Origin: a virus
Virus record (IMG/VR): IMGVR_UViG_3300006810_000434
Span: 1 to 22,635 of that record
Strand: one strand, 5' to 3'
Length of the DNA: 22,635 nt
Shown here: one piece after another, positions 2,134 through 7,690 of the stretch
Layout of the letters: every line of letters starts with the position of its first letter
Numbering within the stretch: the stretch's first letter is position 1
Position numbers and translations under genes: made by a program
Notes under the pieces: model-generated
Databases searched by the model: none
The model's input: only the letters and a program-made list of their open reading frames with translations
What the model was told of the DNA's origin: nothing

Positions 2134-4176
2134 ATGCAAAACGAGATTTTGGGAAAAGTGGCTTTTGCTGCACAATATGCAAGACCCACAGAATCAGGAC
2201 GTGAATCTTGGTTGGATGCTGTTGAACGTGTTTGCAACATGCATTGTGAAAAGTATCCATCCATCCATGAAGAAATAAAAGACGCATTTGAATTGGTCAA
2301 AGAACAACGCATTGTTCCAAGTCAAAGGTCGATGCAGTTTGCAGGTGATGCAATTAAGAAACACAATATGCGCATGTACAATTGCACATATTCACCAGTT
2401 GATCGAAAAGAGTTTTTTAGTGAAATGCTTTGGTTGCTATTGTGTGGATGTGGAACAGGTTTTTCAGTTCGATCAAAGGACATTGTTAAACTTCCACGGG
2501 TAATCAATGCAGATCAACATTCAAAGCGTGATTCAATGATCCATATTGTTGCAGATTCCATTGAAGGTTGGTGTGCAGCTGTTCAAGCTCTACTTGATTC
2601 ATATTTCTTCACTGATTATTTTGATCATTCCATTGATTATGAAATCTATTATGACTTTTCAAAGGTTCGTCCAAAAGGTTCACTTATTGCATCAGGTGGA
2701 ATTGCACCGGGTTATAAACCACTTGAAGTTTGTTTGAATCAAATACGAGATATTTTAAACACTCGACTTGGAAAGAAATTAAGATCAATTGATGTGTTTG
2801 ATATTTGCATGTCCTTGTCTGCTTGTGTTTTAGCCGGTGGTGTAAGACGTTCAGCTTCAATCTGTTTGTTTGATAAAGAAGATCCATTGATGCTGAAAGC
2901 CAAGACAGGTGAATGGTATAAAACACATCCAAATAGAGCATACGCAAATATCAGTGCAACAATCGTGACTGATGGTTCTGAAGATGTGCGTGATGTGAAA
3001 AAGGTGGTTAATCTAAATTCACAGTTTGGTGAACCCGGTGTTTTCTTTTCAGAGTGTGAAGACTTTGGAACAAATCCATGTTGTGAAATTGGATTATATC
3101 CATTTTGGATTCAATCACCATCAGGTCAAAGTGTTGAATACGTTTCTTTGGAAATGGCTAAAGATCGAACACGACTTGAACAGATTGGATGGATGTGGAG
3201 AACGGGTTGGAGTGTTTGCAATTTAACTGAAGTAAACATGCAAAAGAATCCAACGGTGGAAATGTTTTGGCAAGCATGCAAAGCAGCTGCATTCATTGGA
3301 ACATTACAAGCCGGATACACAAACACCGGTTTTCTTGGACCGGTAACAAAACACATCATTGAAAATGAAGCATTGATTGGTGTTTCTTTGACAGGTATGT
3401 ATGCAAACTTTGATGTTTCATTTAGTGCCAAGGTGCTTGAACACGGTGCAAAGATTGTTGTGGATGAAAACAAACGAGTTGCTGAACTGATTGGAATCAA
3501 TCACGCTTCACGCACAACCTGCATCAAGCCAAGTGGAAACACATCAACCGTACTTGGAACATGTGCAGGTATCCATGCATTTCATGCTGAACGCTACATT
3601 AGAACAATGCGAATCAATAAAACCAATCCTGTTTGGAAAGAGATTAAAGAAAAGATTCCTGAAGTCACTATTGATTTAGATGGTGAAACTGGAATCATTG
3701 AATTTGCATGTGAAGCATCCAACGGTGGGTGGACTCGAAAAGAAGTGAATGCAAAAGATCACTTGGACCGGGTTGCATTTGTCCAAAAACATTGGGTTTA
3801 CCCCGGTTCAAAGCAAAGCAGGGTTGCAGGATTATCACACAACGTTTCAAACACTTGCACTGTGAAAGACCATGAATGGAACATGGTTGGTGATTGGCTT
3901 TGGAAGAATAGACACAATGTGCGTGGTGTTGCTATGCTTTCAGACTATGGTGATTTTGTTTACCAGAATGCACCGTACCAAACGGTTTTGGATGGATCGA
4001 CCACTGAAGCCCGGTGGAGAATCTTGAATGATGTTGATTGGTCGAAAGTTGATTTAACATCCATCCACGGAGGAAATGATGCACAATACACAAGCGGATG
4101 TGATGGACTAAAGTGTGAAATTAAAGCTGTGGAAGTTCAGCAATCATTTGGTGATAAACTTTCCAGTTCCACATAA
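2134..4176 (+). CDS. nrdJ: Adenosylcobalamin-dependent (class II) ribonucleoside-triphosphate reductase
   Basis: A 680-residue reductase that would make deoxynucleotides from ribonucleotides for phage replication, using a B12-derived radical and so independent of oxygen. Visible motifs in order: VPSQRSMQFAG (61-71); YNC with C84, matching the redox cysteine of the N-terminal strand; CGCGTGFSV (104-112); VRPKGS (178-183); GGVRRSA (235-241); the active-site loop NPCCEIGLYP (314-323), where C316 is the expected thiyl-radical cysteine with N314 and E318; VCNLTEVN (361-368) with C362 as second redox cysteine; and a C-terminal pair C656-x4-C661, as used for re-reduction by thioredoxin-like partners. 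The length fits monomeric RTPR-type enzymes (about 700 residues). The residue after the radical cysteine is Cys rather than the common Gly/Val/Ala. The 3' end overlaps the convergent recT gene by 56 bp. Confidence 0.93.
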   Translation: MQNEILGKVAFAAQYARPTESGRESWLDAVERVCNMHCEKYPSIHEEIKDAFELVKEQRIVPSQRSMQFAGDAIKKHNMRMYNCTYSPVDRKEFFSEMLWLLLCGCGTGFSVRSKDIVKLPRVINADQHSKRDSMIHIVADSIEGWCAAVQALLDSYFFTDYFDHSIDYEIYYDFSKVRPKGSLIASGGIAPGYKPLEVCLNQIRDILNTRLGKKLRSIDVFDICMSLSACVLAGGVRRSASICLFDKEDPLMLKAKTGEWYKTHPNRAYANISATIVTDGSEDVRDVKKVVNLNSQFGEPGVFFSECEDFGTNPCCEIGLYPFWIQSPSGQSVEYVSLEMAKDRTRLEQIGWMWRTGWSVCNLTEVNMQKNPTVEMFWQACKAAAFIGTLQAGYTNTGFLGPVTKHIIENEALIGVSLTGMYANFDVSFSAKVLEHGAKIVVDENKRVAELIGINHASRTTCIKPSGNTSTVLGTCAGIHAFHAERYIRTMRINKTNPVWKEIKEKIPEVTIDLDGETGIIEFACEASNGGWTRKEVNAKDHLDRVAFVQKHWVYPGSKQSRVAGLSHNVSNTCTVKDHEWNMVGDWLWKNRHNVRGVAMLSDYGDFVYQNAPYQTVLDGSTTEARWRILNDVDWSKVDLTSIHGGNDAQYTSGCDGLKCEIKAVEVQQSFGDKLSSST

Positions 4177-5635: not shown

Positions 5636-5869
5636 TTAATGGTTTGTGTCATTGGCAAGTTCGAGTAAATAAGGCACTTGATAATCTTCACCAGTTAGTT
5701 CAGACAATGCCTTGCAACATGCAACAAGGAATGAAAGTTGCATTGGTCGTTTTTCATTTAGAACTGCACTGATGTAATTGTAAGAATATCCGGACTTGTC
5801 AGATAGATCTTGCAAAGTCAGACTATGCATTTTGAGTGCAGCTTTGATTTGTGCTTTTAACAATCGCAT
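5636..5869 (-). CDS. XRE/Cro-type helix-turn-helix DNA-binding protein
   Basis: A 77-residue protein whose first about 60 residues follow the XRE/Cro HTH pattern: a helix (LKAQIKAALKMHSLT), the turn-linked pair LQDLSDKSGYSYNYISAVLNE (about 18-38) with the scaffold helix and recognition helix, then a closing helix (FLVACCKALSEL). AAGGAG lies about 6 nt before the ATG on the minus strand. It is the first gene of the minus-strand operon and faces the replication operon across a divergent control region, the classic Cro/CI-like arrangement. It may therefore repress one or both promoters there, the direct repeats at 5944-5981 being candidate operators. It is too short to carry a CI-type cleavable domain. 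Confidence 0.8.
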   Translation of the reverse strand: MRLLKAQIKAALKMHSLTLQDLSDKSGYSYNYISAVLNEKRPMQLSFLVACCKALSELTGEDYQVPYLLELANDTNH

Positions 5870-5902
5870 TTAAATCTCCTTGTGTTGCGTTGTATGGTTA
5901 TA

Positions 5903-5931
5903 CATTTACGTGATTGTTTTTCACTTGTCAA
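5903..5931 (-). promoter_or_regulatory. Predicted sigma70-like promoter of the minus-strand (XRE-recT) operon
   Basis: On the minus strand a perfect -35 box TTGACA (plus positions 5926-5931) is followed after 17 nt by TAAATG (5903-5908), a moderate -10 box. It would start transcripts roughly 25 nt upstream of the XRE-type gene. The -35 is convincing and the -10 is weak, so either regulated or modest activity is likely. Confidence 0.5.
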
Positions 5932-5943
5932 CAAAAAAGATAA

Positions 5944-5981
5944 AAAAAGAAAGAAAAGCGTTGAAAAAGAAAGAAAAGCGT
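5944..5981 (+). repeat. Two 18-bp direct repeats, 20 bp apart, overlapping the replication promoter
   Basis: The sequence AAAAAGAAAGAAAAGCGT is present exactly twice, at 5944-5961 and 5964-5981, so equivalent bases are 20 bp (about two helical turns) apart. The second copy covers the -35 to -10 spacer of the predicted replication promoter. Placement and phasing fit a pair of operator sites for one regulator bound on the same DNA face, most simply the XRE-type protein encoded next door. That assignment is inference. Confidence 0.7.
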
Positions 5982-5989
5982 AATATAAA
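5961..5989 (+). promoter_or_regulatory. Predicted promoter of the replication operon
   Basis: TTGAAA (5961-5966), a 17-nt spacer and TATAAA (5984-5989) match a sigma70-type promoter closely. The start point would fall near 5996, giving a leader of about 25 nt before the ATG at 6022, which has AAGGAG 5 nt upstream. The direct repeats at 5944-5981 overlap it, suggesting repression. Confidence 0.6.
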
Positions 5990-6021
5990 ATATTCATGTT
6001 CATTTCACAAAAGGAGTCATT

Positions 6022-6570
6022 ATGAAAGAACATGAATTGCGTTTATATATCTTAAAATCAGATCTAACATCAACCGAGAAACTTGTTTTGCTTGGAATAT
6101 GTTTGCGTTTGGATTGGTCGACATGGAAAGGTCAAATCAGTGCAAAACAGATTTCCGGATTGGTCAACATCACATTAAGAACATCCAAACGAACTATAAA
6201 AGCATTGATTGATAAGAAAGTCATAAAGCGTTCATCAACTCGAATTGGTGAACATATGAACACAGCTGCTTTCACAGAAATCAATTTAAGCTATTTTACC
6301 AAAAAAGACACTAGTGTCATCTATGACACTAGTGCTATGAATGACACTAGTGTCAATAATGGTGATTACATAACCAAAAATGACACTACCCCCGTGTCAT
6401 CTATGGTCAATGATAGTGTCATTAATGACACCCGTAACAATAGTAACAATATAAATACAACCTTTAATCAATTAGAAAAACCAAGATTCACAATTCATGA
6501 AGATGGTTTTAGGTGGGGTGTTGGTACACAATACCCTGATTTTGATCCAAACAGAGACTATAAGCATTAA
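6022..6570 (+). CDS. Winged-helix-like replication initiator candidate carrying its own repeat cluster
   Basis: A 182-residue protein. Residues about 1-90 look like a winged-helix domain of the phage replication-protein type: a helical start (LRLYILKSDLTSTEKLVLL), then ISAKQISGLVNITLRTSKRTIKALIDKKVIKR (39-70) as helix-turn-helix and wing. The middle (about 95-145) is a low-complexity Asp/Thr/Ser/Asn/Val linker encoded by repeated TGACAC/GTGTCA palindromes. The C-terminus (about 150-182) is a short conserved-looking tail, perhaps contacting the helicase loader encoded next. This is the lambda O layout: DNA-binding N-terminus, repeats within the gene, partner-binding C-terminus. It is followed 11 nt later by a DnaC-like gene. 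The initiator function is inferred from layout rather than from a family match. Confidence 0.75.
   Translation: MKEHELRLYILKSDLTSTEKLVLLGICLRLDWSTWKGQISAKQISGLVNITLRTSKRTIKALIDKKVIKRSSTRIGEHMNTAAFTEINLSYFTKKDTSVIYDTSAMNDTSVNNGDYITKNDTTPVSSMVNDSVINDTRNNSNNINTTFNQLEKPRFTIHEDGFRWGVGTQYPDFDPNRDYKH
6307..6431 (+). repeat. Cluster of TGACAC/GTGTCA palindromes: candidate replication origin
   Basis: Five inverted-repeat sites lie inside the initiator gene. GACACTAGTGTC is at 6307-6318; TGACACTAGTG (one arm incomplete) at 6324-6334; TGACACTAGTGTCA at 6342-6355; TGACAC and GTGTCA separated by 7 nt at 6381-6399; and GTGTCATTAATGACAC at 6416-6431. The first three share exact 18-bp spacing. An AT-rich stretch (about 6436-6480) follows. 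Iteron-like sites inside an initiator gene next to a helicase-loader gene are the hallmark of lambda-type origins, so this is the best origin candidate in the window. Confidence 0.75.
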
Positions 6571-6581
6571 GGGGTGTAAAT

Positions 6582-7451
6582 ATGAAATCGTTTACTGAAT
6601 TGGAAGGTTTTCAAGATTGGATCGAATCTTTAAAGCAGAATGTTCAACCAACTAATATAAAACAACCCACTTTGACACATCATTGGCATTTAGAAGAAAA
6701 GGGGTTGTTAGAACGTGAAGTTGTGAAAGGGATTCCACAAATCAAAGTCAACCTGATGAAGTCGTGCAATTGGGAAGGCTGCATTGAATCACATTCAGGT
6801 ATTCACACCAGAATCAAAGTCAAAGATATAGATGGACTTCCACATTCTTTTGGTGTTCCATGTGAATACTGTGGATTAACTAACAAGTATTTAATGCGAT
6901 TCAAAGCAAGTGGATTAACAGCTGATGCAATTGGAAAGCATGTTGGAAACTATGATTTTGATCCAATCTTAGAAAAGAAAACCAAATCATTTGTTTTTGG
7001 TGAAATCCGGGGTGGATTGTTGTATGGAAACACAGGAAATGGAAAGACACATTTATTGTGTGGAGTTGCAAGGGAACTGATTTGGACAGGAAAAAAAGTT
7101 AGATATGTTTCACACCAATCATTGCTTGAACAAATTAAACAATCTTTTGATAAGAACAGTGATGTGGATGATCCACGCTATTCATGGCTTGATGGTGTTG
7201 ATGCTGTTGTATTCGATGAATTGGGTTTCTTCAGAATAAATGAATGGAGTAAACAAACAACCAATGAATTGATTCATGCAATCTATTCAGCAAACATTCA
7301 AGTTCTATTTGCATCAAATATGCAACCAAGGGAAATGATGCACAAGTTTCTTGATATGCGTTCAGTTTCCAGAATTGGTGAAATGTGTACTGATTTCAGA
7401 TATGAAATGAAAGGTGTTGATAGACGTGGAAGTGGTGATTTCTGGAAATAA
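6582..7451 (+). CDS. DnaC/IstB-like AAA+ ATPase, probable helicase loader
   Basis: A 289-residue protein with a clear AAA+ core: Walker A GNTGNGKT (149-156), Walker B VVFDE (209-213), sensor 1 FASN (243-246, N246) and an arginine-finger-like RSVSRIGE (260-267), the pattern of DnaC-type loaders. Before the ATPase lies a cysteine quartet C62-x4-C67 and C94-x2-C97, probably a small zinc-binding module; N-terminal zinc or helicase-contact modules are known in some DnaI/DnaC proteins. It would load the host or phage replicative helicase at the origin through the initiator encoded upstream. A strong ribosome site (GGGGTG) precedes the ATG, 11 nt after the initiator stop. A hairpin terminator lies directly after the stop codon. 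Confidence 0.87.
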   Translation: MKSFTELEGFQDWIESLKQNVQPTNIKQPTLTHHWHLEEKGLLEREVVKGIPQIKVNLMKSCNWEGCIESHSGIHTRIKVKDIDGLPHSFGVPCEYCGLTNKYLMRFKASGLTADAIGKHVGNYDFDPILEKKTKSFVFGEIRGGLLYGNTGNGKTHLLCGVARELIWTGKKVRYVSHQSLLEQIKQSFDKNSDVDDPRYSWLDGVDAVVFDELGFFRINEWSKQTTNELIHAIYSANIQVLFASNMQPREMMHKFLDMRSVSRIGEMCTDFRYEMKGVDRRGSGDFWK

Positions 7452-7490
7452 AAAAAGGCTAGCTTTTTGAAAACTAACCTTCTTTATATG
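7452..7490 (+). terminator. Hairpin terminator A (bidirectional), after the helicase-loader gene
   Basis: Stem AAGGCTAG (7455-7462) pairs with CTAACCTT (7474-7481) with one C/A mismatch. It is preceded by an A-run and followed by TTCTTTATATG and a run of seven T (7491-7497). The A-run makes it an intrinsic terminator on the minus strand too. About 50 bp around it are nearly identical to the hairpin at 7650-7678. Confidence 0.7.
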
Positions 7491-7497
7491 TTTTTTT

Positions 7498-7640
7498 CAA
7501 TCGGTCTTAATATCTGTTTTATTGAAATGAATTGAGCCGCGGATCAATAAAACCAAAACAAAACCGTGCAGCTTGATAAAAACAGTTTTAGCAATAAAGA
7601 CAGTTTATCAATAAACATAATTTAGTCAACTAAATTTCTA
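7498..7640. other. Non-coding block with three inverted repeats between duplicated terminators
   Basis: No coding region is seen. Three palindromic elements occur. GTTTTATTGA (7516-7525) pairs perfectly with TCAATAAAAC (7544-7553) across 18 nt, and this loop plus arm contains the near-palindrome TTGAGCCGCGGATCAA (7532-7547), GC-rich in an AT-rich setting. TTGATAAA (7573-7580) pairs with TTTATCAA (7604-7611). AATTTAGT-CA-ACTAAATT lies at 7619-7636. These could be protein-binding or recombination sites or a structured RNA; no promoter was found that would decide. Confidence 0.6.
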
Positions 7641-7641
7641 T

Positions 7642-7690
7642 AAATAAAAAAAGGTTAGCTTGTCGAGAACTAACCTTTCTTTATGTGTTT
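7642..7690 (-). terminator. Hairpin terminator B (bidirectional), after the minus-strand membrane-protein gene
   Basis: A perfect 9-bp stem AAAGGTTAG (7650-7658)/CTAACCTTT (7670-7678) with an 11-nt loop. On the minus strand it is followed by seven T, an excellent intrinsic terminator for the gene at 7761-8039. In the plus direction the T-run is poorer. From the A-run onward it is a near copy of terminator A at an offset of 196 bp. Confidence 0.75.

Follow-up and report, generated by a model that had tools for sequence, protein, structure and literature searches.

Does a cluster of TGACAC/GTGTCA palindromes inside a predicted initiator gene mark the replication origin of an uncultured phage, or do the repeats serve the encoded protein or a nearby regulator? 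The question arises in an IMG/VR virus record of 22,635 bases, analysed here in its entirety (the window). We consider it very probable that the segment is a lambda-type replication origin lying within its own initiator gene, with an activity predicted from its sequence. This reading draws jointly on the families of the initiator and its loader, clustering of the repeats beyond that of shuffled genes, their conservation in relatives, scans made with the DNA word alone and a natural swap between two related phages.

The gene carrying the repeats was initially annotated as an O-like initiator with iteron-like repeats in its own sequence, and matches to two replication-initiation families bear this out (Table 1), with a similarity to the Pfam family Phage_rep_O (PF04492; E = 5e-4, 20.9 bits) that stays under the 28.7 cut-off. 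A Pfam search at E 0.1 found no Rep_3 or RepA_N domain, so the protein does not qualify as an iteron plasmid Rep. AlphaFold2 predicts a confident winged helix (wHTH) at residues 1-90, where pLDDT is mostly 85-98, and a disordered remainder, with pLDDT of about 50 past residue 100; by Foldseek the fold is MarR/TFE-like (best match 3r0a, E = 6.5e-4). The arginine R57 of the putative recognition helix is the sole invariant column in an alignment of 22 proteins. Direct searches with the initiator yielded no relatives among named phages or in IMG/VR.

Eight exact TGACAC/GTGTCA words occur in this gene (at 6314, 6324, 6342, 6350, 6381, 6394, 6416 and 6426), within the coordinates initially given, and all of them fall within codons 98-137, which encode the linker of the initiator. 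Counted over all 22,635 bases, the word shows no enrichment (22 matches vs 20.4 expected), so the signal lies in its clustering within the initiator gene. This cluster is real and not a product of chance: synonymous-codon shuffles of the gene contained a mean of 1.93 words and dinucleotide shuffles a mean of 0.57, and the observed eight were reached in 0/2000 shuffles of either kind.

Judged from the sequences compared here, the natural unit of the array is GTGTCA-N4-TGACAC, 16 bp long, with its arms in the order that the initial annotation had called opposite and had ascribed to a single odd site. The unit is present in two exact copies and one with 10/12 matches (Table 1). Scored with a weight matrix derived from other phages, these three outrank every other plus-strand site in the whole 22.6 kb (scores of 23.3, 21.5 and 12.3; the next site scores 11.1). 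The 18-bp spacing described earlier holds (6306, imperfect, 6324 and 6342), as do the arm gaps of 7 nt (6381/6394) and 4 nt (6416/6426); the palindrome to which a 0-nt gap had been assigned, TGACACTAGTGTCA, has a 2-nt gap when its arms are taken as 6 nt. The TGACAC-TA-GTGTCA palindrome is the joint between adjoining units rather than a unit itself, and the remaining palindromes mostly result from abutting 16-bp units, the other arrangements being adjoining units and lone half-sites. A second binding mode, once suggested by the mixed arm order and spacing, is therefore not needed, and the supposedly opposite order is canonical elsewhere. The array of the window is a poor one, with exact units at 2 of 7 positions, and its unit phase of 18 bp (6306-6347) is unusual beside the 22-27 bp of most initiator genes, with 17 bp seen in the Ensifer loci L067 and L070.

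Table 1. Features of the candidate origin region, in window coordinates.
Feature	Position	Strand	Evidence
O-like replication initiator gene, 182 aa	6022-6570	+	phrog_270 replication initiation protein, E 9e-8; phrog_678 O-like, E 4e-7
Winged-helix (wHTH) DNA-binding domain, aa 1-92	6022-6297	+	AlphaFold2, Foldseek
Putative recognition helix, aa 52-64, contains R57	6175-6213	+	Helix H52-64 in AlphaFold2 model
Iteron unit, exact GTGTCA-TCTA-TGACAC	6314-6329		Word positions, weight matrix
Iteron unit, 10/12 matches, 18 bp past first unit	6332-6347		Weight matrix
Degenerate units or half-sites starting at 6350, 6371 and 6394, 8/12 matches each	6350-6409		Weight matrix
Iteron unit, exact GTGTCA-TTAA-TGACAC	6416-6431		Word positions, weight matrix
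AT-rich tract, 73% AT, candidate unwinding element	6432-6491		AT content, DNA alignment
DnaC-like helicase loader gene	6582-7451	+	phrog_50, E 9e-32; homologues in L003 (56% identical) and L004 (62%)
Divergent XRE-type HTH gene, probably an early regulator; iterons not assigned to it	5636-5869	-	HTH_3, E 6e-6

Most copies in the window are read as Asp-Thr-Ser-Val (DTSV), as would be expected if the repeats were a by-product of protein-level selection for a repetitive linker. We find this explanation extremely improbable, since shuffles that preserve the peptide give 1.9 words and not 8, the word is translated as VSPMT or GVTHDT in relatives, and the arrays of L043, L048, L054 and L056 all start downstream of the stop codon, behind a wHTH-only gene; two further arrays (L073 and L085) span the stop codon. 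GTGTCA-N4-TGACAC is readable in two frames, the third meeting a TGA stop, and both TGA-avoiding frames are used in 11/13 genes compared, the window included, such that one DNA word yields VSPMT-like and GVTHDT-like peptides side by side. The use of two frames, together with the six arrays past or across a stop codon, argues that selection acts on the DNA rather than on the peptide. Codon conservation at identical residues (23/34 in the iteron region vs 51/123 in the wHTH) agrees with this, on few sites. Relatives that keep the linker peptide and lack the repeats, which the initial annotation had named as evidence against an origin, were looked for; what we found instead were DNA words kept in two frames with differing peptides, or swapped for another 6-4-6 word.

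The palindromes had been expected to recur in homologous genes of related phages, and they do: L003 and L004, two phages found through their loaders, carry nine words each at the same place in the initiator gene. The clearest form of the unit is seen in L004 (four exact GTGTCA-N4-TGACAC units at 22-24 bp intervals), for whose initiator no relatives were found in named phages. Like the window, these two and five other IMG/VR phages (L005 and L007-L010) have the initiator followed by a DnaC-like loader, 56-62% identical. L007-L010 differ from the window in their iteron word, GTATCA-N4-TGATAC, with 9 or 10 GTATCA/TGATAC words and four exact 6-4-6 units each; L005 has five GTGTCA/TGACAC words and zero exact units.

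Alignment of L005 with L007 points to a natural swap. DNA identity is 33-68% across the wHTH and iterons; at nt 396 of the gene, immediately beyond the iterons, it rises to 95-100% and holds that level across the C-terminus and the loader. On this alignment, the two phages differ by exchange of a block with the wHTH and iterons, their C-terminus and loader being nearly identical, and the position of the break indicates that the word moved with the wHTH and not with the loader. Work with hybrid lambdoid phages assigned origin specificity to the first half of O and specificity for P to its second half, a division that fits this break point.

Because the exchanged block begins upstream of the initiator start and also takes in DNA where the XRE gene lies, the swap on its own does not point specifically to the initiator. 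XRE proteins bind palindromes, and the repeats might instead be operators of the divergent XRE regulator, which would then control early transcription from within the initiator gene. However, the intergenic region between the two genes (5870-6021), the expected place for operators, contains no exact word and has a repeat pair of its own, two exact 18-bp direct copies of AAAAAGAAAGAAAAGCGT (5944-5961 and 5964-5981) that are possible operators or a purine-rich tract; moreover, in unrelated loci the word is found behind the wHTH initiator. The absence of the word from the intergenic region and the wider survey described below make the operator reading very unlikely.

Past the array, an AT-rich stretch and a DnaC-like gene follow as initially described. 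The contrast in AT content is modest (73% vs 66% for the gene), with only 5% of the 60-nt windows of the gene being richer, and AGTAACAATATAAATACAA of the tract is nearly identical in L003 and L004. Searching bacterial genomes with a loader profile revealed no relative, and no GC-skew switch, proposed as a further sign of an origin, was seen at 6.3 kb. Two similar hairpin-like stretches with ggctagc/ggttagc arms, resembling paired terminators, lie past the loader (7452-7680). Elsewhere in the window, 2134-4176 holds a B12-type ribonucleotide reductase-like gene (Pfam RNR-II insertion domain, E = 3e-8), with similar ORFs in L003 and L004.

MarR-type wHTH proteins, the nearest folds to the initiator, are mostly repressors, and the sites lie downstream of the gene start, where a roadblock could act. 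The wHTH might thus mainly repress its own gene or block the loader gene, the true origin being elsewhere. To this we give very little credence, as the PHROG families matched are those of replication initiators, the loader gene comes next, the 60 nt past the array are clearly AT-richer than the gene in 7/11 genes examined, and the layout equals that of oriLambda (PMC7466680).

In oriLambda and its Stx phage relatives, the O gene carries 4-6 iterons near its middle, each an imperfect inverted repeat of 18-19 bp; the minimal site for O is an imperfect inverted repeat of 19 bp, and unwinding depends on an AT-rich tract (PMC7466680). The window has the same elements, namely an N-terminal DNA-binding domain (the wHTH), inverted-repeat iterons in mid-gene, an adjoining AT-rich tract and a loader gene directly downstream. 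It is unlike lambda in its half-site word, its DnaC/IstB-like loader in place of P, its 182-aa initiator and its 18-bp unit spacing. The annotated 18-bp iterons of lambda start at 39034, 39054, 39078 and 39101 inside O, with P next, and their intervals of 20, 24 and 23 bp resemble the spacing in L004.

For a survey that starts from the DNA word and not from the gene, we scanned for two GTGTCA-NNNA-TGACAC units within 24 nt; a first, longer search pattern had given 0 matches. IMG/VR viral contigs contained 20 stretches with the GTGTCA pair and 26 with a GTGACA-NNNA-TGTCAC pair, and the bacterial-genome scan gave 20. GTGACA, intended as a control, turned out to be a sister iteron, and two scrambled words of the same base make-up took its place; these, the only true controls, gave 0 and 0 matches in the viral contigs, the set they cover. 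The array lay in an ORF matching replication-initiation PHROGs in 11/20 (GTGTCA), 13/26 (GTGACA) and 8/20 (bacterial genomes) stretches; in a further 4/26 and 2/20 of the latter two sets it straddled or closely followed the stop codon of a wHTH ORF. Altogether, 38/66 stretches, a set that includes near copies (e.g. L019/L027, L022/L026 and L039/L051) and the L004 phage itself (as L016), are inside or directly 3' of wHTH initiator genes.

A less circular test applied an HMM built from one word class to the loci of the other. An array within 400 bp 3' of a wHTH was found in 9/20, 15/26 and 9/20 stretches, as compared with 0.51, 0.80 and 0.59 for random places. In these sequences, the same short word accompanies related genes in phages and in bacterial genomes of several phyla, the wHTH-tied genome matches being in Ensifer, Rhizobium, Nocardia, Streptomyces, Cutibacterium, Luteimonas, Planctomycetota and Vicinamibacterales records. 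The other 28/66 matches are not tied to an initiator, and the word alone is therefore not proof of one; most of these are intergenic or in other ORFs, of which only part were scanned, and among them L021 is cut by the contig end and L029 has its words in an ORF without a PHROG match.

Some of these matches have features of their own. The unit pair of L029 (7698-7735) is encoded ahead of, not after, an HTH-like segment. In four Streptomyces genomes (L069, L075, L079 and L081) a GTGTCA-N4-TGACAC pair at 26-bp spacing recurs in GC-rich surroundings that lack a wHTH initiator; it is likely to be an operator of the chromosome. Seven viral contigs (L034, L038, L042, L045, L046, L049 and L057) have a pair of TGTGACATGCATGTCAC palindromes 37-38 bp apart that is not tied to an initiator.

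We looked for a helix code that would match the word class. An Arg four residues before the invariant Arg is present in 16/16 aligned GTGACA initiators vs 13/21 GTGTCA initiators (Fisher p = 0.006, relatedness ignored; the GTGTCA proteins L013 and L071 did not align). In the GTATCA proteins, L007-L010, a Pro replaces this Arg; the HMM alignment places the Pro of L008-L010 in an insertion, and along the sequence itself it stands four before the Arg in all four. A clean helix code for the word class was rejected, SERT(V/I)QR being present in both classes.

Eight O-like genes of named phages, chosen by protein similarity and not by repeats, were also examined. In five, those of Bifidobacterium phage PMBT6, Psychrobacter phage Y8A, Vibrio phage D67 and phages C72C1 and ctCJ8213, GTGWCA/TGWCAC words exceed synonymous shuffles (at most 1/1000 reach the count) and lie, as in the window, in the linker past the wHTH, although these genes are not close homologues of the window's and mostly have the GTGACA form or a mixture. 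The initiators of Decurro, mEp021 and Cumys contain 0 such words. GTGWCA was the top word in none of twelve further named initiators, several of which have other repeated words past the wHTH. Taken together, these results suggest that in-gene iterons are common and GTGWCA is one frequent choice. Top 6-mer counts determined de novo were matched by at most 5/200 shuffles in 9/20 named initiator genes, by a method whose power is low, since it missed lambda's own iterons.

No report of the GTGTCA word as a shared phage iteron was found in the parts of the open-access literature covered. The TGACACC repeats of pWTY27, considered as a related system, were set aside as unrelated, since they form a conjugation clt site.

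The repeats, their 6-4-6 geometry, their constant position downstream of the wHTH-coding segment and the joint exchange of wHTH and word can be read directly from the loci compared, and most likely it is the initiator itself that recognises its intragenic repeats. In the mechanism that we propose, the O-like protein would bind as a dimer, through its N-terminal winged helix, to the 16-bp GTGTCA-N4-TGACAC iterons that lie in the coding sequence of its disordered linker. With several dimers in place, the adjoining AT-rich tract would be opened, and there the DnaC-like protein of the next gene may load the host helicase.

We lean, by a little, towards a broader view, in which a large class of O-like initiators, in phages with hosts of several phyla, would read one iteron code of 16-bp 6-4-6 repeats with the half-site GT(G/A)(T/A)CA, placed directly 3' of the wHTH part whether that DNA is coding or not, the wHTH and iterons forming a specificity cassette that is exchanged independently of the loader. 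The natural swap, in which the same loader and C-terminus are joined to another wHTH and another word, makes the DNA-recognition code of a phage initiator directly testable. The origins of uncultured phages are seldom known; if the shared code is true, they would be predictable from sequence by a simple rule, whereby the origin is located by searching the DNA immediately 3' of the wHTH-coding segment in an O-like gene for inverted repeats of 6-4-6 form, which often read GTGWCA-N4-TGWCAC.
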